Shown here one piece after another: positions 14,053-47,382 of a stretch of 47,382 nucleotides of DNA. The notes below the pieces were generated by a model that saw only the letters and a list, made by a program, of their open reading frames with translations, made no database searches and had not been told where the DNA came from. The stretch is from Paramagnetospirillum marisnigri. Lineage in GTDB: Bacteria > Pseudomonadota > Alphaproteobacteria > Rhodospirillales > Magnetospirillaceae. Position 1 is the stretch's first letter, and each line of letters starts with the position of its first letter. The stretch covers positions 117,411 through 164,792 of the forward strand of contig NZ_LWQT01000020.1 of NCBI RefSeq assembly GCF_001650715.1, read 5' to 3'. The translations under genes were made by a program, and so were the position numbers.

Positions 14053-14969
14053 GGCCGCTTCCTTTCCGGATGGTCGACCACGCTGGCATAGGGGCGCGCG
14101 GTCTCGATATCCGAGAATTCGATGGGGATCAGCCCCAGGAAGCCGCCCGCCTTCAGGAAGGCCTTGCCCCGCTCGGTCCCGTCGAAGGCGGCCAGCGAGC
14201 GGCGGATGGCCTCCACCGTCTCGGCGCCCAGGCGGGGATGGGCCATGGTGAACTGATGCGGTACCGTCAGGCGGCATTCGAAGGTTTCGACCCGGCCGCT
14301 GATCTCGGGCGGGACCTGCGCCAGGGGCGAGCGGCCGCTGATGGCGGCGTCGGCCTCGCCCAGGGCGACGGCGCGGATGGCGGTGGAATGGTTGGAGGCC
14401 TCCACCAGTTGGTAATCACGACCCGCCACCAGCCCGTGGTCCGAGCGCAGCCACAACTCCGCCACCACCGACAGCGCCGTCAGCCGGTCGGCGGTCAGCA
14501 CCCGCTTGCCCCGCAGTTGGGAGGCCGAGCGGATATCGCTGCCCTTGGGGACGATGATCAGCGGCCGCAGCTCCAGTTTGTAGCGGAACAGCGGCACATA
14601 GCCGTGGTCGGCGGCGATGACGCCGAAATGGGGTGCGGTGACGATGATGTCGAAGGTCTCTTCCCTGACATCATCCAGGTAGTCGTGGAAACTGCCGGAG
14701 GTGTAGAGCTCCACCGGACGGCCAAGGGAGTCTTGTAGATGCAGACGCAGCGGATCGTATAGACGCAGCAGGCTCAGGGTGGCGATGGTGGGCAGGAGCC
14801 CGATGCGCAGCGGGGAGGTCGGGGCGGAATCCGCCCCGGCTTTCGCCGCTCCGACCGCCAGGCCGGACACGGCAACCGCCACCACCGCCACGACCATGAA
14901 ACACCGGCCGAGCAGACCGCAGACCGCAGCGGTCACGCCATTTCTGACGAGCCCCAGGGAGAACCCCAT
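14049..14969 (-). CDS. PhnD-like periplasmic substrate-binding protein
   Basis: A protein of about 306 residues of the phosphate/phosphite/phosphonate-binding PhnD type (PF12974-like): LRIGLLPTIATLSLLRLYDPLRLHLQDSLG, FDIIVTAPHFGVIAADHGYVPLFRY, then SQLRGKRVLTADRLTALS. A hydrophobic signal or anchor segment lies at about residues 20-45. No ABC permease or ATPase genes accompany it; instead it is coupled (ATGA) to a histidine kinase, so a sensing role is more likely than transport. ATG 14969 has AGAGG 6 nt upstream; a TTG at 15020 would add 17 residues. Confidence 0.82.
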   Translation of the reverse strand: MGFSLGLVRNGVTAAVCGLLGRCFMVVAVVAVAVSGLAVGAAKAGADSAPTSPLRIGLLPTIATLSLLRLYDPLRLHLQDSLGRPVELYTSGSFHDYLDDVREETFDIIVTAPHFGVIAADHGYVPLFRYKLELRPLIIVPKGSDIRSASQLRGKRVLTADRLTALSVVAELWLRSDHGLVAGRDYQLVEASNHSTAIRAVALGEADAAISGRSPLAQVPPEISGRVETFECRLTVPHQFTMAHPRLGAETVEAIRRSLAAFDGTERGKAFLKAGGFLGLIPIEFSDIETARPYASVVDHPERKRP

Positions 14970-36015: not shown

Positions 36016-36334
36016 CGGGTGCCACCTTCAACCTCGGCCTCACGGGGTGGCGCAAAAGGTCGTATAGAGAGGTTTCCGCCACCTTCTAACGGATAGCCCA
36101 TAAGCCGGACGAATCCGAAATCTTCAGCGTCAAGCCGACAATGGCGACAACAGGCGCTCTCTCCGGCGAATTACCCCCGGATAACGCCGCTAACTGACTG
36201 CCCTACAACGATTTCGTGGGTGAGTGAGCGCCCGAATCCATCCGCTCTATGGCTGTCGCCGTCCGGATTAAAGGTGCAAAATCCGGCTTAAAGCCGAAAC
36301 CGACAGTGAGCTTGCTACATAATGCCGGTGAAGT
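36016..36334. other. 319-bp intergenic region, no gene seen
   Basis: No open frame of note on either strand. It holds a few GC-rich imperfect repeats of CCGGCTTAAAGCCG type (about 36280-36300) but no clear terminator. It is the chromosomal side of the tRNA-Gln attachment scar. Confidence 0.6.
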
Positions 36335-36378
36335 TGGCTGGGGGACTAGGATTCGAACCTAGACTGGCGGAGTCAGAG
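36335..36378 (-). other. Attachment site: 3' fragment of tRNA-Gln(CUG)
   Basis: Read leftward this is the 3' part of a tRNA: anticodon loop CTCTGAC (anticodon CTG), 3' anticodon stem TCCGC, variable CAGT, T arm CTAGG-TTCGAAT-CCTAG, acceptor strand TCCCCCA, G and CCA. Similarity stops exactly at the 5' edge of the anticodon loop: the partner stem should read GCGGA but reads GCAAA. A 3' tRNA fragment ending there is the classic scar (att) left by tyrosine-recombinase integration. By geometry the island lies to the right and the intact tRNA-Gln should be beyond the right edge. Confidence 0.85.
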
Positions 36379-36538
36379 TTTGCTAGTGAAGCTGTAATAC
36401 ATTGTATTTCATAGCATATTTAAGCCAGAAATCAAACTGCTGACGAAACTGCTAATTTTTCTTGGTATTTCTCAATGTTTTCATCCTGTTAGGCCCAGTG
36501 CGGCTCGCTGCGGCGCAATGAGTTCGTTGTTTGTTCTT

Positions 36539-36632
36539 GGCGGCTCTTCGGTTGATAGCGTATGCTATAATGGGAAATCTGAGTGGATGGTTCGGCCCAG
36601 GCGGCAGGCCAACTTGTCGGTAGTCCCGACAA
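36539..36632 (+). promoter_or_regulatory. 94-bp leader repeat, copy 1 (upstream of tandem hemerythrin gene)
   Basis: Nearly identical to 37622-37715 (about eight differences by eye). It has an extended -10 box (TGC-TATAAT, 36563-36571), the stretch GGTTCGGCCCAGGCGGCAGG, and ends in a family C palindrome (arm ACTTGTCGG). It lies 75 bp upstream of the first hemerythrin start. The matching copy precedes the second hemerythrin gene, so it is best read as a shared promoter and leader. Confidence 0.7.
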
Positions 36633-36707
36633 GTTCCTTGGCTTTCGTTGATGCTGACTTATTATGCACTGTTCCTCCTCCATCAACAGCACTCCCTGGA
36701 GCGCACA

Positions 36708-37484
36708 ATGTCTCCGAAAGTCCTAAGAGCAATTGGGCACGCAGCAATGGATGCGCAGCATCTGCTTCTGATGGATTTGGTCCAGAAAATCGTCACAACA
36801 CTTAGAGAAGGAAGGAGTGATGAGGAATTCATAACGGCTTGCGTCGAATTCAAGGAGGCGCTTGCAACGCACTTCGCGGCTGAAGAAACTGCCCTCAAAG
36901 ACGCAAGCTATAGCAAAGCCAATGAACACAAAGAAAAACATAGAGAAATAATAAATTCAATATCGACCTCAATTGAAGCATTAAAGCTTGTAACATCAAC
37001 ATCGACAAAATTTTCAATTGTTAATGAAATTGAGGATTGCCTATATAATCACGAAATTGTTGATGACTGTGATTATAGCGGCATAGCGCATAACATTCCA
37101 GAAACCTACTGCTGGGACGATACGCTATCGGTCGGCATCGAATGGATTGACAGTCAGCACAAGAATTTATTCTCCATGGCAAAAGTGCTTGGTGAATATG
37201 TTCGCGCCGAAAATTGGAAGCTGGCACAGTTTGTTTACGCAAGAATAATTGATCATATTAAAAAGCACTTTGATGATGAAGAGCTTCATATTGGTCATAT
37301 TGGAGCAGATTTACTTTCACATCGCCGATCTCATTTGCATGCACTCGTAGCGCTAAATGATATGTGGGATGGCGATCACTCGGAAATACTTAAAAAAGTT
37401 GAAGAGTTCATATATCACTGGCTGCGGCAACACATTATTAATGATGACCAAGCTGATCTCGCAGACAATGATTCTGGTAAATAG
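36708..37484 (+). CDS. Tandem hemerythrin-domain protein
   Basis: A 258-residue soluble protein with two hemerythrin-like four-helix domains. Domain 1 (about residues 8-85) has DAQH, HFAAEE and H-x4-H (NEHKEKH). Domain 2 (about 150-225) has DSQH, HFDDEE and SHRRSH. Both keep the His/Glu pattern for a diiron site, so oxygen, NO or iron binding is likely; the family is known for oxygen carriage and sensing. ATG 36708 has GGAG 6 nt upstream; an earlier ATG at 36651 is less likely. The gene is strikingly AT-rich compared with the chromosome. The duplicated leader upstream suggests co-regulation with the gene at 37825. Confidence 0.85.
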   Translation: MSPKVLRAIGHAAMDAQHLLLMDLVQKIVTTLREGRSDEEFITACVEFKEALATHFAAEETALKDASYSKANEHKEKHREIINSISTSIEALKLVTSTSTKFSIVNEIEDCLYNHEIVDDCDYSGIAHNIPETYCWDDTLSVGIEWIDSQHKNLFSMAKVLGEYVRAENWKLAQFVYARIIDHIKKHFDDEELHIGHIGADLLSHRRSHLHALVALNDMWDGDHSEILKKVEEFIYHWLRQHIINDDQADLADNDSGK

Positions 37485-37621
37485 CTTTTCCTTCCGTTGT
37501 GCAAGTGAGTGTCTCGCTTTGCCTTCCTCACTGCGCGCCAAAATATAAAAATTATTTTATGTATTCTCAGTATTTGCCAAATCCATCCACTAATAAGAGG
37601 CGGGGCTTTTCTGCTGTTCAT

Positions 37622-37715
37622 GGCGGTTCTTCGGTTGGCCGCGTATACTATAATGGGAAATCAGACTGGATGGTTCGGCCCAGGCGGCAGGCCAACTTGT
37701 CGGGAGTCCCGACAA
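37622..37715 (+). promoter_or_regulatory. 94-bp leader repeat, copy 2 (upstream of single hemerythrin gene)
   Basis: Second copy of the 36539-36632 repeat. It contains TATAAT, the same GC-rich middle, and the family C palindrome, here with a damaged right arm (CCCGACAA then CAG). It begins 203 bp before the hemerythrin ATG. The rest of the 340-bp gap 37485-37824 shows no gene. Confidence 0.7.
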
Positions 37716-37824
37716 CAGCCTCCGAGCTGATGGCGCGCCTCCAATGTTTCAGAGCGCCCATGTCTTGTGCTACCGTTTCCATATTCGCCAAGATGGCGGC
37801 GGAAGCACTCGGGGGATTGCCATA

Positions 37825-38232
37825 ATGGATACTCGCTGGAAGCCTGAATATGAAGTTGGCCATCCGCGAATTGACTCCGAGCATCAAGTTTTTCTGGACC
37901 TGATTGAGCAATTTACAAGCGAGGCTGCGCGAGGAGTTGATGCGAAGCGCTTATCTCGACATTGCGCTGAACTATACAAATACGCAGATTTCCACTTCTT
38001 CAGTGAAGAGGGGCTTTTGGAGAGCGTTGGTTATAATGATCTCGAGGGACATAAGAGGCTTCACGCCGACTTGCTAAAGTCATTACGCATATTTATAGAG
38101 TCAATATCGATTGACTCTATTATGGCAGACGAGATGGCTGAGTTTCTGTTGGGGTGGTTTGTCAATCATACAACAGCAGAAGACCCAAAGCACATCCATT
38201 TCCTCCCTAAAACCTCACCGTACAATCGTTAG
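37825..38232 (+). CDS. Bacteriohemerythrin-like protein
   Basis: A 135-residue single-domain hemerythrin. The diiron ligands are recognisable: DSEH (helix A), H-x3-E in DFHFFSEEG, then GHKRLH, and the last ligands in WFVNHTTAEDPKH. The opening WKPEYEVGHPRIDSEHQ is typical of bacteriohemerythrins. ATG 37825 follows GGGGGA. Its stop overlaps that of the convergent gene at 38229 by 2 bases (TAG/TAA share TA). It probably binds oxygen or NO at a diiron centre. Confidence 0.88.
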   Translation: MDTRWKPEYEVGHPRIDSEHQVFLDLIEQFTSEAARGVDAKRLSRHCAELYKYADFHFFSEEGLLESVGYNDLEGHKRLHADLLKSLRIFIESISIDSIMADEMAEFLLGWFVNHTTAEDPKHIHFLPKTSPYNR

Positions 38233-38525
38233 CCCCCAGATAACAACTGATGACCCAGCGCATTTCCGACCTGATCGCTTAGTGCGGCCAGCCGATAACA
38301 GTTGACCCGCTCCATCTCGGTCGTCGCCACTGCCGCATATTTGGCCGAGATCGATGTAAGCCGCTGCGACAGCCGCATCAGCACCAGCAGCGACGGCTGA
38401 CGCTTTCGGGCCTTGGCGCAGGACATATAGCTGCGCGACTGGCCGAGCCAAAACCGTGAAAACTCATACTGGCTCTCGACCAACCACATATCGCGCAATT
38501 CCCCATAGATGACCTCCAGCAGCAT
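38229..38525 (-). CDS. DUF6626-like small protein
   Basis: A 98-residue protein. The opening LLEVIYGELRDMWLVESQYEFSR and WLGQSRSYMSC resemble DUF6626, a family of small proteins found on alphaproteobacterial plasmids and islands; its function is unknown. A helix-turn-helix-like layout is possible but not clear. GGAGGAA lies 6-7 nt before ATG 38525; the frame continues 5 codons upstream without a better start. Confidence 0.6.
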   Translation of the reverse strand: MLLEVIYGELRDMWLVESQYEFSRFWLGQSRSYMSCAKARKRQPSLLVLMRLSQRLTSISAKYAAVATTEMERVNCYRLAALSDQVGNALGHQLLSGG

Positions 38526-38555
38526 GGCCGTTCCTCCCAAGCGTTTAAGACCAGC

Positions 38556-38577
38556 TATTTAGCCCTGGCGCTAAATA
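38556..38577. promoter_or_regulatory. Inverted repeat in the 38526-38629 divergent region
   Basis: TATTTAGC, 6 nt, GCTAAATA: perfect 8-bp arms. It lies between two divergent genes (38525 leftward, 38630 rightward), so it is a candidate operator for one or both. Confidence 0.45.
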
Positions 38578-38629
38578 CGCTTGCGGAGCAGCGCCACGAT
38601 GGACGCTGCCGCAAGGAGGAGAAAACGCC

Positions 38630-38764
38630 ATGAACAGACTGACCTATTTGCCAAGGGGCTACTGCGAGATCGGATTTAACCGCGAAATCGTGCTGATCGA
38701 AGAAGCCGTACATCAGGCCATCATCGCTACGCTGCTAATGATGACGGCTCGGAGGTTGCCTTGA
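38630..38764 (+). CDS. Small protein of 44 residues
   Basis: Sequence begins MNRLTYLPRGYCEIGFNRE and continues with a helix-like IVLIEEAVHQAIIATLLMMTARRLP. It has a very good ribosome site, AGGAGG about 9 nt before ATG. The C-terminal half is hydrophobic enough to bind a membrane or a partner helix. The last 38 bp overlap the 3' end of the convergent gene at 38727. Unknown function. Confidence 0.5.
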   Translation: MNRLTYLPRGYCEIGFNREIVLIEEAVHQAIIATLLMMTARRLP

Positions 38765-39887
38765 ACTGAGGTGCTTTCAGGTTCGAGCTGCGGGTCGCCT
38801 GTAGCTCGAACTGCCAAGTCGTGTCATTGATCTGCACGATGCACCGTGACGGCACATCGCCGCGATAGCTCAGGAAGGCAAAGCCGCCAACCAAGCCAAT
38901 TTGTTGGCAACGCGTATCGCCAAGTTCATGGACGGCGCTGGCGACATGATTTTGGGGTAGCCTGCCGCTGGCCGCATCCGCCTTGGCCTGCAAGCTGGGA
39001 ATGAGATGGCCGCTGATGGCCTCGTACCACTGCCGTGCTTCCGCGCCCTGGCCCCGCTCCACATAGATCAGTTCCTCGGCACGTCGCGGAGTGCGGAAGT
39101 TCAGGCGGAACTCTTTTTCTCCGACTTCCAGTCGGCCTCGCACATGGCTGCGTGAGCCGCCATCGACCCACAGCGATATATTGGCCTTTTGGGAAATGGC
39201 CTTCACCTGCCCCGTTGGCCGATTGGCTTTTGCCTCCATGGGTGAATTGGCATTGGCTGTCTTTGGGTCTTTCCCTTGATGAAATGGCTCGTCCGATTTG
39301 GCGGCGAAGCCACGAAGTGGCGAAGCCGCATCGTCAATCACATTGGTATTCACCGCGATGGGCAAAGCCGCCTCGGTGATCTGGTGGCGAGCAACAGGCG
39401 AGCCGCCATCGACTTGGGCTGAAAGGCCATCGGTCGAGGCCGAAGGCATTGTGAACGCCAACGGCGTATCGATTAGTTTTAGCAATAGCCTAGCAATAGT
39501 GACTGGATAAGTCGTTGTGGTAACAGACGAATTAGCGCCTTTGGTGTGGAAACCGTGTGGGAAAGATGTGGAAACGGTGTGAAAAGCGTGTGGGAAACGC
39601 CCATGCAGATAGGCCATTCGGCCACTTGATGCATTGGCATTTGTGAAATCCACGGCCTGCCTGATCGGCCGTCGCTGTTCCTTCGTCAGTTGTATTGCGC
39701 CTTCGTGGGCCACCTGGATGCCATAATGCATGTCCAACTGCCTGACCAGCCAATCGCCCTGCTTGTCGGACGTGCGCCCCTTGGCGTGAAATGCCGCGAT
39801 GCAGCCGATGAGCATGTCGTCAAACCGCGCATCGCCGCGCAGGTCGCAAAGTCGGTTTAAGTATCTGTTCCATTGAATATCTGCCAT
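38727..39887 (-). CDS. Hypothetical protein with an internal 11-bp DNA repeat
   Basis: A 386-residue soluble protein I do not recognise. The N-terminal ~80 residues (IQWNRYLNRLCDLRGDARFDDMLIGC) look like a compact folded domain; the middle (about 95-250) is low-complexity and Ser/Thr/Ala-rich, hence probably disordered; the C-terminal ~130 residues (WVDGGSRSHVRGRLEVGEKEF) look like a beta-rich folded domain. The middle covers a tandem 11-bp repeat that is not in multiples of codons. GGGAGA precedes ATG 39887. The large linker suggests fusion of two separate domains. Confidence 0.6.
   Translation of the reverse strand: MADIQWNRYLNRLCDLRGDARFDDMLIGCIAAFHAKGRTSDKQGDWLVRQLDMHYGIQVAHEGAIQLTKEQRRPIRQAVDFTNANASSGRMAYLHGRFPHAFHTVSTSFPHGFHTKGANSSVTTTTYPVTIARLLLKLIDTPLAFTMPSASTDGLSAQVDGGSPVARHQITEAALPIAVNTNVIDDAASPLRGFAAKSDEPFHQGKDPKTANANSPMEAKANRPTGQVKAISQKANISLWVDGGSRSHVRGRLEVGEKEFRLNFRTPRRAEELIYVERGQGAEARQWYEAISGHLIPSLQAKADAASGRLPQNHVASAVHELGDTRCQQIGLVGGFAFLSYRGDVPSRCIVQINDTTWQFELQATRSSNLKAPQFKATSEPSSLAA
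39544..39598. repeat. Five tandem 11-bp repeats (GTGTGGGAAAC-like)
   Basis: Consensus RTGTGGRAAAS repeated five times with exact 11-bp period: starts at 39544, 39555, 39566, 39577 and 39588. Because 11 is not a multiple of three, the repeat does not give a peptide repeat in the overlapping gene, so it is preserved or generated at DNA level. One-helical-turn spacing would put all copies on the same face of the helix. Confidence 0.75.
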
Positions 39888-39904
39888 TTTCGTTTTCTCC
39901 CTCG

Positions 39905-39925
39905 AGCGTTTTCAGTTGAAACGCT
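39905..39925. promoter_or_regulatory. Inverted repeat upstream of the 386-residue gene
   Basis: AGCGTTT, 7 nt, AAACGCT, 17 bp upstream of ATG 39887 (leftward). The location suits an operator overlapping the ribosome-site region or promoter. Confidence 0.45.
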
Positions 39926-40142
39926 GGGGCGGCCTGGAAAACGCAATGAAAGAGGCTGTCACTGATCCCGTCGGACACAGCTAAGCCCCAGCATTGTATT
40001 TATGATGGTCGGCGCCCTATTTGTGGCCGCTTGGCAAAATAATTTTCTGCAATTTTCACGGTTTGCTCCATTGCTGCATAGCGCAAACCAGCACATTCAT
40101 AATTCGTTGATTATGCTGCTGAAATTCAGCGGAATAACGCCT
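39926..40142. other. Intergenic stretch without a gene
   Basis: Part of the 458-bp gap between 39888 and 40345. It is comparatively AT-rich around 40035-40135 and contains ATTCGTTGATTATG-like elements but no convincing gene. The right part of the gap holds one copy each of palindromes A, B and C. Confidence 0.5.
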
Positions 40143-40159
40143 TGTCGTGTTACACGACA
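40143..40159 (+). repeat. Palindrome family A, copy 1
   Basis: TGTCGTGTTACACGACA: 8-bp arms with one central base, T orientation. Followed 9 bp later by a family B palindrome. Confidence 0.9.
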
Positions 40160-40168
40160 CTCGTCCCT

Positions 40169-40183
40169 GTAGGTTTAACCTAC
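40169..40183 (+). repeat. Palindrome family B, copy 1
   Basis: GTAGGTTTAACCTAC, with outer T-G mismatch and then C. It forms the A-B composite unit with the palindrome at 40143. Confidence 0.85.
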
Positions 40184-40239
40184 GCATGGCACGCGCCCAC
40201 GTCGCTCATGCCGATGTGGCCCATCTGTCGGCCAGCTTC

Positions 40240-40260
40240 CTGTCCGGAATCCCGACAAGT
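40240..40260 (+). repeat. Palindrome family C, degenerate copy
   Basis: Right arm CCCGACAAGT is intact, left arm is altered (CTGTCCGG). Related to 36611-36634, 37692-37715 and 41034-41058. Confidence 0.65.
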
Positions 40261-40345
40261 AGGCGGCCGAGTGCGGCGCAACAATACGTCATAAATTGAA
40301 AAACTCTGTGGGTTTCCACGCCTTCCAGATGAGGCCAAGGTAATC

Positions 40346-40627
40346 ATGGAAGGCCCGCGAAGTTGGAATTCATCCGTCAGGAAAATGACCGAGGTGAAAA
40401 TGGCATTTGGCAGTGAACGGCGTGAACGCCATTGCATCGCCAAGCGAGTAGCGGCGATGGTCAGTTTGCAGCGGTCATCGAGCAATCCGCTGCTACAGGA
40501 ACTCGTGGATGTTGGCTGCCGTTGCGCCGAACTGAACCACTGCAAATTGGCCACTGCTTGCGGGGCAATCCATCGTGCATTTGCCCCGATGAATGCAGCT
40601 TCTCACGCCCAACCCTTTGCCGTGTAA
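40346..40627 (+). CDS. Small hypothetical protein whose stop lies in a palindrome
   Basis: A 93-residue basic, cysteine-containing protein (HCIAKRV, VGCRCAELNHCKLATACGAIH). AAGG lies 5 nt before ATG 40346; ATG 40385 is an alternative. Its TAA stop is supplied by a degenerate family A palindrome (40618-40634), so the C-terminus may have been altered when that element inserted. The overlapping leftward frame (40180-40554) is judged a shadow. No recognised family. Confidence 0.45.
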   Translation: MEGPRSWNSSVRKMTEVKMAFGSERRERHCIAKRVAAMVSLQRSSSNPLLQELVDVGCRCAELNHCKLATACGAIHRAFAPMNAASHAQPFAV

Positions 40628-40634
40628 CGCGACA
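40618..40634 (-). repeat. Palindrome family A, copy 2 (two mismatches)
   Basis: TGCCGTGTAACGCGACA, A orientation. Its central TAA ends the frame of the gene at 40346. Confidence 0.8.
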
Positions 40635-40662
40635 ATCTGTGGTTGCGCACAATCCGTAATGG

Positions 40663-40926
40663 CTATTCGCGATTGCCCAGGAGGACAGAGAGCTTGGCGA
40701 CTGTGTCGGCTTGAAGCGAGCGGATATTTCTCACCATTTCAATTGAGGTCCGATATGCCTCGTCGGCCTGATCAAGGGAGGCGATGGCTGACGGCGTAAG
40801 CTCACCGGCAGATTGAAGCCGATCGCGCAGGACAATGACACTCCGCCGAGCCTCGGCCAGCTTGTTCAGGAGGAAATCGCCGTTTTTGGCGATTTGCGCC
40901 AACGAGGCTATGTCAATTTCTCCCAT
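40663..40926 (-). CDS. Small helical hypothetical protein
   Basis: An 87-residue protein predicted to be all-helical (IASLAQIAKNGDFLLNKLAEARRSVIVLRDRLQSAG, then SIEMVRNIRSLQADTVAKLSVLLG), possibly a coiled-coil hairpin. A good ribosome site, GGAGG, lies 9 nt before ATG. No recognised family. It is divergent from the gene at 41108, with palindrome C between them. Confidence 0.55.
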   Translation of the reverse strand: MGEIDIASLAQIAKNGDFLLNKLAEARRSVIVLRDRLQSAGELTPSAIASLDQADEAYRTSIEMVRNIRSLQADTVAKLSVLLGNRE

Positions 40927-41033
40927 GCGCTCGCCCCTCCGCTGCGCACGATACTAAAGCCATAATTCCCTTGTTGATTTAGCTTGGCAACCCCCATTTC
41001 CACACATGTCATTCTCGCGGCCTGCATGTCTCC

Positions 41034-41058
41034 AACTTGTCGGGATTCCCGACAAGTT
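41034..41058 (+). repeat. Palindrome family C, perfect copy
   Basis: Perfect 12-bp arms (AACTTGTCGGGA and its complement) around a single T. It lies in the divergent region between 40926 and 41108. A second hairpin, GTCGG-AAAAA-CCGAC, is at 41078-41092. Confidence 0.9.
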
Positions 41059-41107
41059 GACCGCGTCCATAAATACCGTCGGAAAAACCGACAGCAGGAG
41101 AACGCCG

Positions 41108-41323
41108 ATGCGGATGTGGGAAATCGTGGCCGAGGAGATCAAGGCCAACAGCATCGGGGATAATTTGAAGAAGCAGGCCGACGCGAAGGCCGAACAAGCC
41201 AGGAAGCTCAAACAAGCCGCTTCCATTCAGAAGAAGCGCGAGCAGGTCAGCAGCACAAAAGCTTCCATGCTGAAAAAGCAAGGCGATCTGACAAAGCTCA
41301 TTGCAACAGGAAATCAGCTATGA
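41108..41323 (+). CDS. Small lysine-rich helical protein
   Basis: A 71-residue protein, about a quarter Lys/Arg, predicted to be one long helix or coiled coil (KKQADAKAEQARKLKQAASI, then KREQVSSTKASMLKKQ). AGGAG lies 8 nt before ATG 41108; an earlier in-frame start at 41006 would read through palindrome C and is less likely. Composition suggests binding to DNA or RNA. No recognised family. Confidence 0.5.
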   Translation: MRMWEIVAEEIKANSIGDNLKKQADAKAEQARKLKQAASIQKKREQVSSTKASMLKKQGDLTKLIATGNQL

Positions 41324-41327
41324 GCAA

Positions 41328-41461
41328 AAACATAATAAAAGCAGCATTTCATTATGTTTGCAGTTAATCCCTTGATTATCAATGCAGATAATCACCGTAG
41401 CGATACCGGCTATTTCACTCATATAATGTTTTACCTAGTGCGATAACATTTCATTAGGTAA
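41328..41461. promoter_or_regulatory. Three inverted repeats upstream of the short recombinase gene
   Basis: (1) AAACATAAT/ATTATGTTT at 41328-41359, 14-nt gap. (2) TGATTATC/GATAATCA at 41373-41394, 6-nt gap. (3) TTACCTAGTG/CATTAGGTAA at 41431-41461, one mismatch, 11-nt gap, ending 4 bp before the start codon and enclosing its probable ribosome site. Site 2 has the 6-bp gap usual for tyrosine-recombinase core sites; site 3 could mask translation. Assignments are inference. Confidence 0.55.
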
Positions 41462-41465
41462 AGCG

Positions 41466-42032
41466 ATGAAACAGGCCTAGGTACTCAGCGAAGCGGAACT
41501 GAAGCGCGTGCTGTCCGTGATCGCCAATCAACGCCATGCAGCACGCAACCGCATAGCGGTCATGTTGAGCTTCTACGCAGGAATGCGCGTCGGCGAAATT
41601 GCCCATTTGAAACTCGGCGATGTCCTTGATGGCGATGGCCGCGTGAAGGACCAGATCACGCTGTTGGCCCACTATACCAAGACCGCCGAGGCCAGAGCGG
41701 TGTTCGTCAGCGGCAAGCTGCGCCGCGAACTGGAACGCTTCCTGTCGTGTAACACGACAACAGATCGCGCTGCGCCGTTCCTCGTGACACAAAAGGCCAC
41801 TGCGTTTTCGGCCAACACGCTTTGCCAGCTCTTCGGACAGATTTACGCACTGGCCGGAATTGATGGCGCAACCAGCCACAGCGGTCGGCGGTGGTTTATC
41901 ACCCAGTTGGCCCACAGCGGCGTTTCCGCGAAGGTCATTATGACGCTGGCAGGCCATCGCCACTTGTCCACCACGCAGCGGTACATCGAGGTCAACGACC
42001 AGATGATGAAAGCTGCCGTGGAGGTGCTGTAG
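41466..42032 (+). pseudogene. Single-domain tyrosine recombinase with an amber codon and an in-frame palindrome
   Basis: From ATG 41466 the frame reads MKQA-stop-VLSEAELKRVL; TAG is codon 5 (41478-41480), probably a Lys codon mutated to amber. The rest is a complete catalytic domain: Arg in AGMRVGEI, Lys in HYTKTAE, H-x-x-R in SHSGRRWF, His in LAGHRHL and the nucleophile in TTQRYIEV. There is no N-terminal arm-binding domain, so it is of the size of FimB/FimE-like enzymes (about 188 codons). Restart at GTG 41508 would give 174 residues. A family A palindrome at 41743-41759 adds SCNTT in frame at a loop. Whether it is active is unclear. Confidence 0.75.
41743..41759 (-). repeat. Palindrome family A, copy 3, inside the recombinase gene
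   Basis: TGTCGTGTAACACGACA, A orientation, exact. It is read as part of SCNTTTD between the helix RELERFL and the conserved-looking RAAPFLVTQK, without breaking the frame. Confidence 0.9.
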
Positions 42033-42070
42033 CTGTACCCTGGTGGATGACCGGGATGTGCCATGATTGG

Positions 42071-42670
42071 TTAATCATCACGTGGCTCAGGAGGAAACTT
42101 ATGGGCGATGCCCTTATGGCACTCAATGCAGGATTTATTGTTGGGTGCGGCCTCCAATTTCATTTTTTGCCGGGCATCATTACCCTGCTTGTGAAACGCC
42201 ATAGCCTCGTAGCTATGACAGGTCCTACATTCGCGTGAATCGCTTCTGAGCATACTGTCCCATACACGCTCGGCTAATAGTCGCCTCCGGGCCTCGAATT
42301 TCTCTGGAGTTGAAATAGTACCAACTAATGTGTGGTATATATCGGCGGCTGCCTCAACCTTGCGGACTAATTTTGCCAGACCGGCCCTAGGAACATGGCA
42401 ATCCGAACAGATTACCCTGACTCCCGAAGGGTTACTGTAGTGGGAGGATTTCTTGTATTCCTCATATACAGTTGCTTCCATCTCGTGGCACGATATGCAG
42501 AATTCTAGGCTGTTTGTTCGCTGGATTATGGCATCTCCTGCCCATAACAGTCCAGCTCCGGCTAGAATTCCTACGATAAGGATAGCCCCAAGCGAAAGAC
42601 TGCGTGGCGGGCTCCAAAATGTCCGCCACGCAACTTTCAATCGACCAGCTGCCTTTGACAATAGCCCCAC
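42071..42670 (-). CDS. NapC/NirT-type tetraheme cytochrome c
   Basis: Membrane-anchored quinol dehydrogenase of 199 residues. One N-terminal anchor helix (SLGAILIVGILAGAGLLWAG), then four CxxCH haem sites: CISCH, CSDCH, CRTCH and CIECH, as expected for NapC/NirT. Such proteins pass electrons from quinol to periplasmic reductases. Its start lies 3 bp after the stop of the diheme cytochrome gene, so the two form an operon; no terminal reductase is adjacent. It is convergent with the recombinase gene. Confidence 0.92.
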   Translation of the reverse strand: MGLLSKAAGRLKVAWRTFWSPPRSLSLGAILIVGILAGAGLLWAGDAIIQRTNSLEFCISCHEMEATVYEEYKKSSHYSNPSGVRVICSDCHVPRAGLAKLVRKVEAAADIYHTLVGTISTPEKFEARRRLLAERVWDSMLRSDSRECRTCHSYEAMAFHKQGNDARQKMKLEAAPNNKSCIECHKGIAHKFPPEPRDD

Positions 42671-42673
42671 GCC

Positions 42674-43381
42674 CTATTGCCTCGGCAGCGTTAGGACATA
42701 GCTCACCAAATCGGCGGAGACCTGAGGGCCGAAGAGGCGGAGTGCGGGCATGGACTCCCCAGCTTGGCCATTCATAATCTTGTGCATCATTTCTTGTGGA
42801 TTCTGCACTGCGCCAAGCGGTTCGGCATTGGTGATTTTCTTGCCGTCCATTCCATGGCATCCGGCGCAAACCGTATTGTAATACTGCTCTCCCTTGACGA
42901 CATCGCCCTTGGCCTTCTTGGCCGCGTAGTCCACAAACTTAGTCATTTCGATCTGACCCTTGGAGACAAATAAGGCAAGGTCGGCGACATCGCGCTCGGA
43001 AAGATGTGCCTCTGTATAACTGTGAGTTTTGTCGCGCAGAACGGCGGCAATCGCTACAGGGTCTCGGCCCGCAGAACCCTGAATTCCCTTAATCCCTGTG
43101 GCATGTCCGCCGGTGGCATAGGCACCGTCCTTTCCGAGGTAGTCCCAGCCATGACATTCCTTGCAGCGCCAAGACACTTCCTTGCCATATTTCCCGCCTT
43201 TGTTTGGATAGGTAGCGTGATCGTCAGTTGGCTTTGACAGCTTGTTCTCAGTCCAGAACTTATCATAAAGACGGCCACCACGAGCAATAGACGACTCCTG
43301 CTCTCCTGCCTGCGCTCCCGTCGAAACCAACATGATGGCAAAAGCCAGAGAGAGCGCCATAGGGATACGAAGGGCACGCAT
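42674..43381 (-). CDS. Periplasmic diheme cytochrome c
   Basis: A 235-residue secreted protein with signal peptide (RIPMALSLAFAIMLVSTGAQA) and two CxxCH sites, CKECH near residue 70 and CAGCH near 170, each in its own cytochrome c-like domain. Axial Met ligands could be in the GESMPALRLFGP segment for the second haem. It is first in an operon with the NapC/NirT protein and is the likely electron acceptor of it. ATG 43381 has GGAG 6 nt upstream; TTG 43393 is unlikely. A Fur-box-like TGATAAT-T-CTTATTA lies about 25-45 bp upstream, a weak hint of iron control. Confidence 0.9.
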   Translation of the reverse strand: MRALRIPMALSLAFAIMLVSTGAQAGEQESSIARGGRLYDKFWTENKLSKPTDDHATYPNKGGKYGKEVSWRCKECHGWDYLGKDGAYATGGHATGIKGIQGSAGRDPVAIAAVLRDKTHSYTEAHLSERDVADLALFVSKGQIEMTKFVDYAAKKAKGDVVKGEQYYNTVCAGCHGMDGKKITNAEPLGAVQNPQEMMHKIMNGQAGESMPALRLFGPQVSADLVSYVLTLPRQ

Positions 43382-43436
43382 GGAAGTCTCCAAATGCAGT
43401 TAAATCTAATAAGAATTATCATCATGCGCATTATAG

Positions 43437-43598
43437 TCAATAGCTTGCTGGTTCGTCGCGTGGAGATCCGATTGCCCGCACCAGACGGGCCTGCTCCGAA
43501 AACGATACGCCATCGAGGATCAACTCCATATCGGCCAAGGCGAGCACGCGGCCAGCATTGATGGCTGTGACCTGAATGACGCTGATCGACCCCAACAT
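43437..43598 (-). CDS. Small hypothetical protein (53 residues)
   Basis: Frame MLGSISVIQVTAINAGRVLA followed by LADMELILDGVSFSEQARLV and a short tail. The opening strand-rich part resembles small conserved alphaproteobacterial proteins with a ...V-x-A-I-N-A-G...L-A-x-A-D-x-E-L... pattern, but the C-terminal half differs, so it may be truncated. No clear ribosome site. Its start lies within a perfect palindrome ACATACATCATGTATGT (43595-43611). Confidence 0.3.
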   Translation of the reverse strand: MLGSISVIQVTAINAGRVLALADMELILDGVSFSEQARLVRAIGSPRDEPASY

Positions 43599-43746
43599 AC
43601 ATCATGTATGTTCATCGGCATGTCGTGTTACACGACACGGCACTCGTAGGTTTTTCCTACACGAGCCTCCCGTCGGAAAAACCTACAGGACATTCCGCTC
43701 GGCTGTCGTGTTACACGACATGGCCATGCGTAGGTTTAACCTACGC
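43595..43746. repeat. Array of palindromes (two A-B composites and relatives)
   Basis: In order: ACATACATCATGTATGT (43595-43611), family A (43621-43637), family B with T5 centre (43646-43660), hybrid GTCGGAAAAACCTAC (43673-43687), family A (43704-43720), family B CGTAGGTTTAACCTACG (43729-43745). The A copies are exact and both in T orientation. About 150 bp, no gene on either strand, divergent region between 43598 and 43853. Confidence 0.85.
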
Positions 43747-43852
43747 ACTATTTTTTCGGGAACGATGGCAAGTCGCCGCCTGTCTTTTCGTTGTGATCCG
43801 CTTCAATCACCCATACCGTGTTCATTGTACGTTCCCATATGGAGAATTGGAA

Positions 43853-44290
43853 ATGAGCACGTTGGACAAGCTGAAGCTGATGGAAATCACCCGTAGGGCG
43901 GCGGCCAGCACGCCTGAAGGACATTTGCGAAACAGGATGGTCGAGGCCATCAACCAGCAGATCGCTGCTGCGGAAGCGATGCAGAGCGGCGAAAGCTTTC
44001 AGCTTCGTCGTCGGCATTGGGTGAAAGGCGCTGGTGGTGAGAAAACGCTACAGGAGAAGCTGATCCGCTTTCGGCCTTGGTACTGGCAGGAAACCAATGG
44101 CGCGTTCATGCTGGAAGTGCGCTACGGCAACAAGGTGATCGAGATCAAGCCGAAGAAGACGGCCATCGAGGTCGGCGCGGTGGCCGAACTGGTCCCGACT
44201 TTGACGCTGCTGCGTGAGGCCGTGGTCGCAGGCGAACTGGACAAGCAGTTGGCCGCCGCAAAAGGCCGTTTCGGCAAGAAGCTCGCGTAA
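43853..44290 (+). CDS. DUF6641-like protein
   Basis: A 145-residue basic protein. The opening STLDKLKLMEITRRA, the core IAAAEAMQSGESFQLRRRHWV, WYWQETNGAFMLEVRYGNKVIEI and AVAELVPTLTLLREAVVAGELD match DUF6641, a family common on alphaproteobacterial plasmids and integrated elements; function unknown. GGAG lies 8 nt before ATG 43853. The palindrome array is directly upstream. A GC-rich hairpin (CCAGCCCC/GGGGCTGG, 44300-44323) follows the stop and may terminate it. Confidence 0.7.
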   Translation: MSTLDKLKLMEITRRAAASTPEGHLRNRMVEAINQQIAAAEAMQSGESFQLRRRHWVKGAGGEKTLQEKLIRFRPWYWQETNGAFMLEVRYGNKVIEIKPKKTAIEVGAVAELVPTLTLLREAVVAGELDKQLAAAKGRFGKKLA

Positions 44291-44396
44291 GAAGCTTTTC
44301 CAGCCCCATACAAGCGGGGCTGGATTCATGAGTGCCGCACTACACGGTCCCCGGCTTTGAAGCGTGTGCGGCGGTTGGCAGCGCGAAAGCCACGGC

Positions 44397-44431
44397 GGTC
44401 CATATATAGAGTGTCGTGTAACACGACAACG
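44397..44431. repeat. Direct repeat flanking the Nudix gene, left copy
   Basis: GGTCCATATAT, 3 nt, then G plus the exact family A palindrome (44412-44428) and ACG. It matches 44970-45011 except for spacer length. Confidence 0.8.
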
Positions 44432-44501
44432 AGCATGGCTATTTATTACAGTTTTGAGCCAATCCAGCCTGTCACATTTGGGCCGCTGCCGTTATGGTCA
44501 C

Positions 44502-44518
44502 TGTCATGCAACGCGGCA
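44502..44518 (-). repeat. Palindrome family A, degenerate copy
   Basis: TGTCATGCAACGCGGCA, four differences from the consensus, directly upstream of the likely Nudix start. Confidence 0.5.
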
Positions 44519-44531
44519 AAGTGGGGGCGAG

Positions 44532-44966
44532 TTGGGAAGGTCAGTTCAGTCCGCAGCACTGCCATATCGCATTCTGCCTGACGGTTCCGTCGAGGTGCTG
44601 CTGATCACAACGCGGCGAACTGGACGATGGAATATCCCAAAAGGCAATGTTGCGGCTGGCTTTTCATTGCCAGCGTCTGCGGAGAAAGAGGCATTTGAAG
44701 AGGCAGGCATCCGAGGCCGAATTTCGGAAAATGCTGCGGCCATTTACAGAACGATCAAGCGCCTCAAAGACCGACAGCTCATTCTCGATGTCGTGGTCTA
44801 TCTGCTGCTGGTCGATGCGGAGGAAGAGAATTGGCCTGAAATTGGCCAGCGACAAAAGCGATGGGTGAGTGCCGCCGAAGCTGCCACGTTGCTGCAAGAG
44901 CCAAGCCTTTCCAATCTCTGCCTGTCATTGGCCGCGTCTCATTCCGTCGAGCGCCAGCAGAGCTGA
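44532..44966 (+). CDS. Nudix hydrolase
   Basis: About 144 residues with a Nudix box: WNIPKGNVAAG, then SAEKEAFEEAGIRG, with Lys in place of the usual Arg. The core opens with AALPYRILPDGSVEVLLIT and resembles small hydrolases of diphosphorylated compounds. No ATG fits this frame; TTG 44532 with GGGGG nearby is the most plausible start. The frame is open upstream to 44364, but that part reads through two palindromes. The original start may have been lost to insertion. The gene is bracketed by two direct repeats. Confidence 0.65.
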   Translation: MGRSVQSAALPYRILPDGSVEVLLITTRRTGRWNIPKGNVAAGFSLPASAEKEAFEEAGIRGRISENAAAIYRTIKRLKDRQLILDVVVYLLLVDAEEENWPEIGQRQKRWVSAAEAATLLQEPSLSNLCLSLAASHSVERQQS

Positions 44967-44969
44967 GGT

Positions 44970-45011
44970 GGTCCATATATTAAGGTGTGCGTGTCGTGTA
45001 ACACGACAACG
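44970..45011. repeat. Direct repeat flanking the Nudix gene, right copy
   Basis: GGTCCATATAT, 10 nt, then G plus the exact family A palindrome (44992-45008) and ACG. It begins just after the Nudix stop and lies 12 bp from the integrase stop. Confidence 0.8.
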
Positions 45012-45023
45012 GCCTGACCAAAA

Positions 45024-46451
45024 TCAGTCCAGCATATCGCTCAATCTGATCTTCGCTCGCCGCTGCGGCAGATTGGGATCAGGTTCAGCCTCGGGCGCAT
45101 CAGGATCAAAAGTCGGGCCTTCGGGCGCTTTCCGCAATAGCGCTTCGGCCATCGCGGGGTTCTCGGTCAGCATGGCGATCCATGTCTTCATATCAAGCTG
45201 CTGTTTATCGTGGGTCAGTTCCTCCGAGCGCTGCTGCGGCTCGTCCTGGCCGTAGTGCTTGCGGATCATCTCCACGCTCGTGCCCATGTTCTTCGCCAGC
45301 AGCCACACATCCACTCTGCCGTTGATCAGGCGGTCAGTCGCATAGGTATGGCGCAGACTGTATGGCGCGAATTTATCCCCATGTCGATCCGTGACCAAAT
45401 CGACCGTCTTGAGCAGAGCTTCCATTCCATGGATGAAGCTCTTGATCGGTTTTCCGGTCGCTCTGTCGGCGAATACAGGATCGCGGGGCTTGGTCCAAGG
45501 CGAAAATGACTTGATGTATTGCAGGGCGCTCCACGTATCCTCGCTGCTGACCGCGAGCCGTTTGCCTGTCTTTGTGTCATCACGGACATGGATATGGGTA
45601 ATCTTGCGAGTGCCAAACTCAGCCTTGGTCTCAACCAGTTCGCAATCTTCCCACCTGAGTTGCTGGTGCTCTTTCCCAGGGCGCAGGCCAGTCTCGAACA
45701 TGAACCGCATATAGCCACAGAGCATCTTGCGGTCATGCTGCACCACGGGGCCATTGGCACTCTCTATATATGGCCCCATGGCCGCTTCCACGCGCTTCCA
45801 TTCCGAGGGCGAAAATGCTGGCCGCCGATTGTCCTCGCGGGGGTCTTCCTCAATATCGGGGATTTGATCGCGCGTAATCCATTTGCGCTTCAACGCCGCC
45901 TTGAAGATGGCCTTGAGAATGAGGATTTCACCCGAGCGCTGCGTCTGCGCTTTCTTCGGCATTTTGGCCTTGATGAGCCTGCCGGCACGCATATATTCCC
46001 GCGTTTCCTCCTTGGAACCAGGGCCGCTAATCCAGTAGTTCAAGCGCCAAATCTTATACGCTTCGATGTGCTCCTGCTTGATCGCGTCGATGGCCTTGTT
46101 CTTGAAATACGGTAGCAGATAGCGGTCGATGACGGCCTTGTTGTCGCGTTGTGTCCGAGCCGTCTTTTTCCCTGACGCTACAGCGGCAGCGAGGTCTTCA
46201 AGGTACGCTTCGACCGACCGCTGGAAGGTGCGGCTGTGAATGGCAATGCCGCGACGGTAATCCGCAGTCAGTTCGTAGAACTTTTCGCGGGCGACTTCCT
46301 TGGCCTCGTCCAAATCGCGCTTGCCCGTCGCGCAGGTCACATAGCCTTTCATGCCGCGAATTTTGTATCGGGCCGTCCATGTTTGCGCGCCCATGTACTG
46401 CCGTTGATAGAGCGCTACAGCACCATCGAGGATATGAACAACGTCACCCAT
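45024..46451 (-). CDS. Tyrosine-type site-specific integrase
   Basis: Phage-type integrase of 475 residues, probably responsible for insertion at tRNA-Gln. N-terminal arm-type domain, SAM-like core-binding domain (about 70-190), then catalytic domain with Arg in FETGLRPGKEHQQL, Lys in DDTKTGKR, H/R in YSLRHTYATD, and nucleophile Tyr in IRKHYGQ. The C-terminal ~60 residues after it are an extra tail. The start lies 5 bp after the stop of the DUF2971-like gene upstream, so the two may be one transcript. The frame looks intact. Confidence 0.92.
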   Translation of the reverse strand: MGDVVHILDGAVALYQRQYMGAQTWTARYKIRGMKGYVTCATGKRDLDEAKEVAREKFYELTADYRRGIAIHSRTFQRSVEAYLEDLAAAVASGKKTARTQRDNKAVIDRYLLPYFKNKAIDAIKQEHIEAYKIWRLNYWISGPGSKEETREYMRAGRLIKAKMPKKAQTQRSGEILILKAIFKAALKRKWITRDQIPDIEEDPREDNRRPAFSPSEWKRVEAAMGPYIESANGPVVQHDRKMLCGYMRFMFETGLRPGKEHQQLRWEDCELVETKAEFGTRKITHIHVRDDTKTGKRLAVSSEDTWSALQYIKSFSPWTKPRDPVFADRATGKPIKSFIHGMEALLKTVDLVTDRHGDKFAPYSLRHTYATDRLINGRVDVWLLAKNMGTSVEMIRKHYGQDEPQQRSEELTHDKQQLDMKTWIAMLTENPAMAEALLRKAPEGPTFDPDAPEAEPDPNLPQRRAKIRLSDMLD

Positions 46452-46456
46452 ATTGC

Positions 46457-47221
46457 CTACACATCTAATATCCTTGATGAAACAACCCTACTCTCAAGTG
46501 ATGGGTGAAGCTCTCGCAATAGCTTCTTCACAAGAGATCCAAGCCAGTTTCCTGAGAACGGAGATACATATATGCTGTGAATTAGCTCATCAATATCAAC
46601 GCCTATACGGATAGGGTATAGCAGATCTTCACCGCCCTCTGATTTCGGGTAGTCAAGAACAATAAGCCTTGCCTCGCGCTCATATGAATAAAATGTTCTC
46701 TTTGTACACACAAGCTTGAGTCTATTAATTCTATTAATATCAATGCCGTTTGTATAATCAACCTCTCCTATGTAGCAAGGGTAATGTTTTTTGTCAGAAT
46801 GTTCCTTATTTTTATTATTGATTGACCTCCTTAATGAGCTGACCGTTGACTGGATAGCGATTCCTGATTTTGCCCCGCCAAGATATATCTTCCAAAGCGC
46901 GTAGGATTCATCTCTATCAATTGACCAGCAATTTACAGATGTTCCATTTCTATAAAGTTCGTACCACCCATACTTACTCGCGAACTCCTCATGTGCATCC
47001 CTGATAGTCATGCCTGATTTTATATATTTTGAAATTATAGACTTCTCAATATCATTTGGTATCCGCGCCTCATTTGCGTCTGTAAGATCGGAAGTTTTCG
47101 TTAGATGAATTTCCTTGTTAAGGACAAGATCAACAAACTTATCAATTCCAAAGTATCTCCATATTTTATTGTTCCCATGTGGTGATTTAACTTGGTCAGT
47201 TGACGTTACCTTGTAGCGCAT
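46457..47221 (-). CDS. DUF2971-like protein, AT-rich
   Basis: A 254-residue protein. WRYFGIDKFVDLVLNKEIHLTKTSDLTDANEARIP, then VNCWSIDRDESYALWKIYLGG and YEREARLIV match the DUF2971 family by layout (an N-terminal Y-x-x-F-S/G...L-x-F/L-x-x-P/S-x-x-x-D and the central CWS...ESxAxWxxY). The function is unknown; relatives often occur on mobile DNA near defence genes. The gene is far more AT-rich than the flanking integrase, indicating separate acquisition. A GGAG (CCTGCCAGGAGACGTAAATG context) precedes ATG 47221. Confidence 0.65.
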   Translation of the reverse strand: MRYKVTSTDQVKSPHGNNKIWRYFGIDKFVDLVLNKEIHLTKTSDLTDANEARIPNDIEKSIISKYIKSGMTIRDAHEEFASKYGWYELYRNGTSVNCWSIDRDESYALWKIYLGGAKSGIAIQSTVSSLRRSINNKNKEHSDKKHYPCYIGEVDYTNGIDINRINRLKLVCTKRTFYSYEREARLIVLDYPKSEGGEDLLYPIRIGVDIDELIHSIYVSPFSGNWLGSLVKKLLRELHPSLESRVVSSRILDV

Positions 47222-47382
47222 TTACGTCTCCTGGCAGGATCAGTCACCATTAACAATTGGGTAAAATCTGCTTCTTTGCGCAAAGCTATTATCAGTGCGA
47301 TAGATGGTCATGTCCCGTCGAGTGGTGTAGCAGCTTTTGCCTGGGGATGATGGCGTAGGGTGCGTAGCGCCCGGAGGCGTCA
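47222..47382. other. Right edge, no gene identified
   Basis: 161 bp with no complete gene. It may hold a promoter for the DUF2971-like gene. The last ~80 bp are GC-rich and resemble the flank of an insertion sequence, but no transposase or terminal repeat is visible, and no tRNA-Gln copy is present before the edge. Confidence 0.4.

Follow-up and report, generated by a model that had tools for sequence, protein, structure and literature searches.

What does a 17-bp palindrome do that recurs within a few kilobases of one bacterial island? The question is raised by a stretch of 47,382 nucleotides from Paramagnetospirillum marisnigri (contig NZ_LWQT01000020.1, positions 117,411 to 164,792 of the forward strand), analysed at full length and called here the window. 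Its palindrome, TGTCGTGTWACACGACA (palindrome A), is one of several palindrome types found in a family of integrative elements, which are often located beside tRNA genes. Copies of A sit at module boundaries, homology between elements breaks on one side of them, partners are exchanged across them, and the joints occur both occupied and unoccupied. One junction looks like a clean deletion, and polarity is constant in most clusters of flanking arms. The explanation that we prefer, and to which we give an even chance of being right, is that A is a directional recombination joint for module exchange within this family. What moves seems to be the DNA between the palindromes; that a dedicated recombinase acts at A, and which one, we infer.

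A pattern scan of the whole window retrieved six exact copies of A (Table 1) and, at up to three mismatches, a single inexact one, with two mismatches at 40618. Outside 40143-45008 the rest of the window held no A at this threshold, and 100 dinucleotide shuffles of the window gave zero copies. A is therefore a real, dispersed repeat tied to mobile DNA, as a preliminary description from the sequence had it. That description counted eight copies, of which the six exact ones and 40618 stand, while the site at 44502 (TGTCATGCAACGCGGCA) is weak, with four mismatches to A and a position within the nudix reading frame. The copies "in both orientations" differ by a flipped central base only (T at 40143, 43621 and 43704; A at 41743, 44412 and 44992), the other 16 bases being symmetric. 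The palindrome is confined to the island within the window, but the genome holds 13 exact copies, six on the window's contig (C20), two on C52 and five on C70, with the same element genes at all three places. A literature search by the letters of the palindrome gave no paper, in line with its being called undescribed, although most subscription papers lay outside that search. A stem of 7 bp is present in 245 17-mers across the Magnetospirillum loci (about 27 expected under uniform composition); 100 of them are A, 31 are type C (TGTCGGGNNNCCCGACA) and 25 are type B (YGTAGGTTWAACCTACR), and E-like types recur.

The elements occur in Magnetospirillum and in other alpha- and betaproteobacteria. 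Conserved around A are genes for a long tyrosine integrase (INT), DUF6641, p271 (271 amino acids, no known function assigned), an AAA protein that matches clamp loaders (PHROG 168), p104 (104 amino acids, weakly SpoVG-like, below the Pfam cut-off), TyrR (a tyrosine recombinase of 188 amino acids with the catalytic domain only), p111 and p388. According to the match coordinates, the order in Magnetospirillum, where complete, is INT, DUF6641, p271, AAA, p104, cargo, TyrR, p111 and p388, with DUF6641 and TyrR read in the direction opposite to the other conserved genes. The cargo includes nudix, cytochrome, hemerythrin, response regulator, chemoreceptor and PAS histidine kinase genes. A tRNA was found in 11 of the 18 loci scanned; among them, INT is preceded by tRNA-Gln (CTG) in loci L083, L087 and L095, by tRNA-Thr (CGT) in L005, L092 and L094, and by tRNA-Arg (CCT) in L006 and L089. 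The tRNA end in L006 is repeated, over 48 bp, at 14386-14433, which is probably the other end of that element. A second type of element, with INT, DUF6641 and A, carries a conserved cysteine-containing protein of about 300 amino acids (L090:3555-4469; homologues in L096, L098, L108 and L109), which by eye resembles a replication protein and has no Pfam match.

Homology breaks were counted with L102 excluded, as it was from the arm-cluster, one-sidedness, alignment-end, repeat-module, conservation and polarity counts. With 50-60 bp per side compared without A itself, and with pairs of intermediate score dropped from both sets, homology was one-sided in 197 of the 318 site pairs that were scored; ten shifted positions taken together gave 120 of 666 (range 0 to 0.43). 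At A, 13 of 22 arm clusters had at least two different partners, compared with 5/19, 1/9, 1/12 and 2/19 at shifts of -120, -60, +60 and +120, the -60 and +60 controls being poor as they contain A in an arm. The number of alignments ending at the edges of A (306, control mean 14) is inflated by the identical copies of A, which lengthen alignments, and is not relied on; the tests of homology breaks that we rely on are those using flanks without A. When L084 and L095 are compared, the DNA to the right, beginning with the first base of A, matches in two blocks (468 bp at 94% and 1848 bp at 96% identity), whereas to the left only 43 bp are shared. The 3' end of p104 followed by A was present in 12 copies with nine different partner arms, and the p104 stop codon then falls within A. 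Truncated p104 3' ends with A recur as repeats in L091, L095 and L099, ending at the edge of A or at most three bases from it. In the 11 multi-partner clusters, the largest cluster excluded, the central base was constant in 69 of 69 arms.

At the junction of INT and DUF6641, integrases beside three different tRNAs meet similar DNA at A or at a sister palindrome. Over the last 300 bp of INT, the Gln type shares an identity of 0.53-0.57 with the Thr and Arg types, which is the level of shuffled sequences (mean 0.547, range 0.507-0.590), and the Thr and Arg types share 0.64-0.68 with each other. On the other side of the palindrome, towards DUF6641, identity between INT types is 0.88-0.95, with L100 omitted; owing to its insertion, L100 reaches 0.62-0.66. 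Of 15 junctions measured, nine have short spacers of 135-195 bp, with A at the joint in L083, L095, L097, L005, L094 and L085. In five junctions, exact or one-mismatch copies of A enclose modules: the nudix gene in the window, a small open reading frame plus a hemerythrin gene in L103, the same small open reading frame plus a response regulator in L093 (where the boundary separating the two is strongly degraded), a module that includes a response regulator in L104, and, in L087, 295 bp with a one-mismatch copy on either side (2932 and 3244). This junction is thus an array of single-gene modules at one place, which can hold none, one or two. The hemerythrin module of L103 recurs in L101 (93% identity over 488 bp) between one-mismatch copies of A and alongside an INT of a different type. 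Module orientation is mixed, as the nudix gene and the L093 response regulator read towards INT.

In the mechanism that we propose, a gene or gene block would be joined to its neighbour via one copy of A. A module entering at this joint would gain a copy on each side, and recombination between two copies would delete the intervening DNA. A recombinase would bind the symmetric arms of the palindrome, with the single asymmetric central base setting the direction. TyrR is the likeliest candidate for this enzyme, because it is present in every A-bearing family genome (11/11) and its sequence contains the expected residues of the tyrosine recombinase motif (R, K, HxxR, H, Y). A wider proposal is tentative and, in our judgement, somewhat doubtful: that the family practises a form of cassette exchange outside integrons, in which a tyrosine recombinase with the catalytic domain only would use dispersed 17-bp palindromes with a directional central base, and swaps of cargo and integrase would change the tRNA target. 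Changes of cargo or insertion site in such elements are usually described as mosaic, without a mechanism, while here a short sequence predicts where modules meet. If the proposal is true, it would place another way of shuffling gene cassettes next to that of integrons and offer a mark by which a so far unnamed family of elements can be searched for. A is also small enough for a direct plasmid assay.

Several observations weigh against a recombination joint served by TyrR, in addition to the poor -60 and +60 controls. TyrR is also present in 13 of the 44 A-less family genomes, and DUF6641 fits the presence of A equally well (11/11 with A, 12/44 without). The Rep-type elements (L090, L096 and the like) have A and no TyrR in the stretch read, while in L098 TyrR lies just outside it. 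Other palindromes stand in for A at some positions: a C-like palindrome replaces it at the short INT/DUF6641 junction of L006 and L089, and that of L092 has no palindrome. The insertion in L100 is about 160 bp away from A, and A is missing behind p104 in L005, L006, L089, L092 and one of the two L104 copies. The largest arm cluster (26 arms) mixes central bases, 15 A and 11 T, probably because adjacent B and E palindromes hold it together; for the p104 arm, the stop codon lying in A may be what sets the polarity. The copy within TyrR keeps both arms in 14 of 14 cases, with the central base flipped in three, so not every copy of A is a joint. Part of these observations would also be expected from homologous or slippage recombination between repeats of 17 bp, or from selection on a site whose place at gene ends is incidental. 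Plain repeat-driven recombination is a possible source of them, because DUF6641 fits equally well and the Rep-type elements have A without TyrR.

The position of A relative to genes, based on crude gene calls, bears on the main alternative in the preliminary description, a binding site for a regulator. Outside Magnetospirillum, A lies mostly between genes and often at gene 3' ends: 16 of 43 copies (37%) are within 100 bp of a 3' end (6.8% for random positions) and six of 43 are inside genes (random 81%). Within 100 bp of a 5' end we found one of 43 (random 4.9%), with ten more within 300 bp. In Magnetospirillum, 28 of 98 copies are at 3' ends (random 7.8%), 61 of 98 are inside reading frames (random 81%) and six of 98 have a 5' end no more than 100 bp away (random 7.4%). 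Gene 5' ends are thus not enriched, and A is more than a simple promoter operator. A dispersed operator network, in which element regulators bind A and its sisters B, C, D and E and recombination is a side effect of repeats at gene ends, is kept as an alternative, though an unlikely one. It would account for the strong dyad symmetry, the constraint on sequence, the several palindrome types together upstream of DUF6641 and the recurrence of E-like types upstream of DUF6641 in A-less relatives. It fits poorly with the scarcity of A near 5' ends, with copies inside genes and with the swapping of integrase modules at A. In addition, terminator-like hairpins aimed at A within 90 bp accompany 5 of 141 copies (10 of 1290 control places), and no helix-turn-helix regulator was recognised among the proteins searched. 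E-like palindromes upstream of DUF6641 in A-less elements (L144:3872, L145:8190 and 8297, L149:5137), as in the window, suggest that this type may be a separate, DUF6641-linked site.

Conservation of the letters themselves is strong. Among 106 pairs with both flanks at least 75% identical, the 16 symmetric bases of A had 27 mismatches, compared with 141.5 expected from the flanks, and were identical in 95 pairs (about 34 expected); they are thus conserved five-fold beyond their flanks. Of 261 comparisons at matching positions between elements, 218 showed A unchanged, 43 showed a change and none showed an empty site, each pair being counted in both directions, so that the comparisons are not independent. 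In some of the changes C stands in place of A, or a different palindrome in place of the first, between flanks that both exceed 90% identity.

Such changes, in which both arms of a palindrome change together and symmetry is kept between conserved flanks (A to C, or E to another palindrome), would be expected if pairing mattered more than letters, that is, if A acted as a structural hairpin, either in 3'-end RNA or in DNA that is single-stranded while the element replicates or is transferred. The perfect stems of 7-8 bp with loops of 1-3 bases, and the replication-like genes of the elements, such as the clamp-loader-like AAA, would suit this explanation too. We nevertheless consider it quite improbable. 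The letters of A stay exactly the same between elements whose matched proteins share 22-66% identity, a constancy that structure alone would not require. A T-run follows 2 of 141 copies, by which an intrinsic terminator was rejected. An Rfam scan of 36000-47382 gave two matches, both below the gathering score.

The same comparisons speak against a small self-inserting hairpin like the repetitive extragenic palindromic (REP) sequences or the Rickettsia palindromic elements, which the preliminary description had favoured. The dispersal of A within and between genes would agree with such an element, and so would a repeat of about 75 bp in Comamonadaceae that ends in A at apparently ordinary intergenic places of the chromosome. 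The 261 comparisons contained zero empty sites, however; in a looser comparison some gaps were shorter than 17, from alignments that stopped short or slipped. The copy that it noted inside a gene does exist, in the TyrR frame, but does not look like a 17-bp insertion, as A-less relatives have a loop of similar length there. Its codons are letter-identical, save for the central base, in the compared Magnetospirillum copies except L101, which has a 20-bp C-type palindrome, and at this position different hairpins, or no hairpin at all, occur in further TyrR relatives, of which some are 87-88% identical. No Y1_Tnp protein, the family of the REP-associated tyrosine transposases (RAYT), was found in the genome (PF01797, 0 matches; 5 of 14 control genomes were positive). 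A self-inserting hairpin was therefore rejected as very improbable. The Comamonadaceae repeat, in which A is often followed by TGTCCTTTTAAAGGACA, was seen at L111:7884 and 10439, L122:5719, L009:2471, L010:208, L019:1484 and L030:7906; where reading frames were available (L111, L009 and L019), its neighbours are genes of ordinary appearance, and the element genes are absent.

Beyond the Magnetospirillum group, the exact 17-mer accompanies a diverged element family. Exact A was present in 11 of 55 genomes of the bacterial family, in 2 of 17 genera, and a reversed-pattern control had no match in the same 55 genomes. In 84,980 species genomes, 55 stretches contained exact A. By arithmetic, assuming uniform base composition, about 30 exact matches are expected by chance in these 257 billion bases, so a lone match in an unrelated organism is probably a chance one. 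One or more element proteins were found in 35 of the 55 stretches, 19 of them outside the Magnetospirillum group and many in betaproteobacteria; the matched parts of the proteins in these 19 are 22-66% identical, and in two of them (L013 and L056) the integrase alone was seen. With the centre genomes counted, the Pfam model of DUF6641 matched 5 of 385 genomes in the class of P. marisnigri and 2 of 274 in that of a Limnohabitans genome, and the more sensitive protein search found DUF6641 in 23 of the 55 family genomes. In seven of seven further loci DUF6641 occurred without A, and one of these (L143) adjoins an A-bearing element. L110 and L143 are neighbouring Limnohabitans elements whose TyrR, DUF6641 and INT are 87-94% identical; the one with p271 and AAA has three exact copies of A, and the one in which neither was found has none. 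Plasmid and phage collections gave one match, of 66.6%, between the TyrR region and a plasmid of Azospirillum. Neither AAA nor p271 had a match in the plasmid collection, and DUF6641 had none in the phage collection, while among viral contigs exact A occurred in three stretches.

The features of the window are collected in Table 1. No tRNA was found adjacent to its INT, where the contig ends with the window, and no NCBIfam model matched this protein. The nudix module had no relative in the other Magnetospirillum loci. In the window TyrR, with its in-frame TAG, a GTG start at 41508 would give 174 amino acids. The predicted structure of DUF6641 (mean predicted local distance difference test score 78.9) had no match in the PDB at E <= 0.001; the result is uninformative, and the idea of DUF6641 as an obvious DNA-binding protein gained no support. 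A literature search for DUF6641 gave no paper, most subscription papers being outside the search. The tail of AAA carries 63-bp in-frame repeats in L083:19113-19255 and L095:9453-9658, each with one A or near-A copy. In the Magnetospirillum set we also noted 12 promoter-like units, consisting of a good promoter (TATAATGGGAA), usually a GC-rich hairpin, and then a palindrome, which is A in five, near-A in five and D in two. The two units in the window are 91% identical.

Table 1. Features of the window discussed in the text (positions in the window; strand. where none applies)
Position	Strand	Feature	Basis
36532..36635	+	Promoter-like unit (TATAAT, hairpin, degenerate D palindrome), before hemerythrin gene	
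37615..37715	+	Second promoter-like unit, ends in C/D palindrome, before hemerythrin gene	
38727..39887	-	p388 homologue, conserved in the element family	family comparison
40143..40159	.	Exact A, upstream of p388 gene	pattern scan, arm comparison
40169..40183	.	Palindrome type B	palindrome scan
40618..40634	.	A with 2 mismatches, 28 bp beyond p111 stop codon	pattern scan
40663..40926	-	p111 homologue, conserved in the element family	family comparison
41033..41059	.	Palindrome type D/C, CAACTTGTCGGGATTCCCGACAAGTTG	palindrome scan
41466..42032	+	Small tyrosine recombinase TyrR, in-frame TAG near start	protein matches
41743..41759	.	Exact A within TyrR gene, encodes SCNTT	pattern scan, relatives compared
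42071..43393	-	Two cytochrome c genes (one NapC/NirT type), cargo position	protein matches
43464..43589	-	Remnant of SpoVG-like p104 gene	family comparison
43594..43612	.	Palindrome type E, AACATACATCATGTATGTT, upstream of DUF6641	palindrome scan
43621..43637	.	Exact A, palindrome array upstream of DUF6641	pattern scan
43704..43720	.	Exact A, palindrome array upstream of DUF6641	pattern scan
43727..43747	.	Palindrome type B (GTAGGTTTAACCTAC core)	palindrome scan
43829..44290	+	DUF6641 gene	protein matches
44412..44428	.	Exact A, joint of DUF6641 3' side and nudix module	pattern scan, junction comparison
44429..44991	+	Single-gene module (nudix hydrolase) between two A copies	protein matches, junction comparison
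44992..45008	.	Exact A, joint of nudix module and integrase 3' end	pattern scan, junction comparison
45024..46451	-	Long tyrosine integrase INT, no tRNA found adjacent	protein matches, tRNA scan

Several known systems resemble A in part. The REP/RAYT and Rickettsia palindromic elements are dispersed palindromes, some of them inside genes, as is A, for which, in contrast, neither empty sites nor a RAYT were found. KorA/KorB of RK2 and C1 of P1 are regulators that bind sites dispersed through a mobile element; short dyads dispersed in mobile DNA, with different dyads side by side, are common to both, whereas A often lies at gene 3' ends or within genes and is linked to module exchange. The invertases FimB and FimE are tyrosine recombinases of about 190-200 amino acids without an N-terminal domain and thus resemble TyrR in size and in the absence of this domain. 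The NCBIfam matches, however, reach 35 and 39 bits (cut-off 221), and the polarity, constant in most arms, gives no sign of inversion between copies of A.

Integrons appear nearest in behaviour, not by family membership. As in integrons, single genes lie between sites that are often at gene 3' ends, the element has a tyrosine recombinase, the sites have polarity, and the promoter-like unit reading towards cargo recalls the integron platform promoter. The attC sites of integrons are 57-141 bp long, with R and L boxes, and imperfect, whereas A is a near-perfect palindrome of 17 bp; the repeated part at the INT/DUF6641 joints is, by eye, the palindrome plus about 10-25 bp, and at p104 it is 81-145 bp. 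Furthermore, the parts exchanged here include the integrase gene of the element itself, and module orientation is not uniform. With the integron integrase model (TIGR02249, cut-off 265), TyrR of L006 scored 29.3 bits and that of L110 44 bits. Integron gene cassettes with attC and attI are treated in PMC3053210 and PMC4792948. PAISt of Streptomyces turgidiscabies has an 8-bp recombination site, TTCATGAA, at one chromosomal gene (PMC4057263), and the part of its abstract consulted does not mention dispersed copies inside the island. Modular excision is a further likeness, and in the use of a short palindrome at a gene 3' end as a recombination site, PAISt appears to be the system nearest to A.

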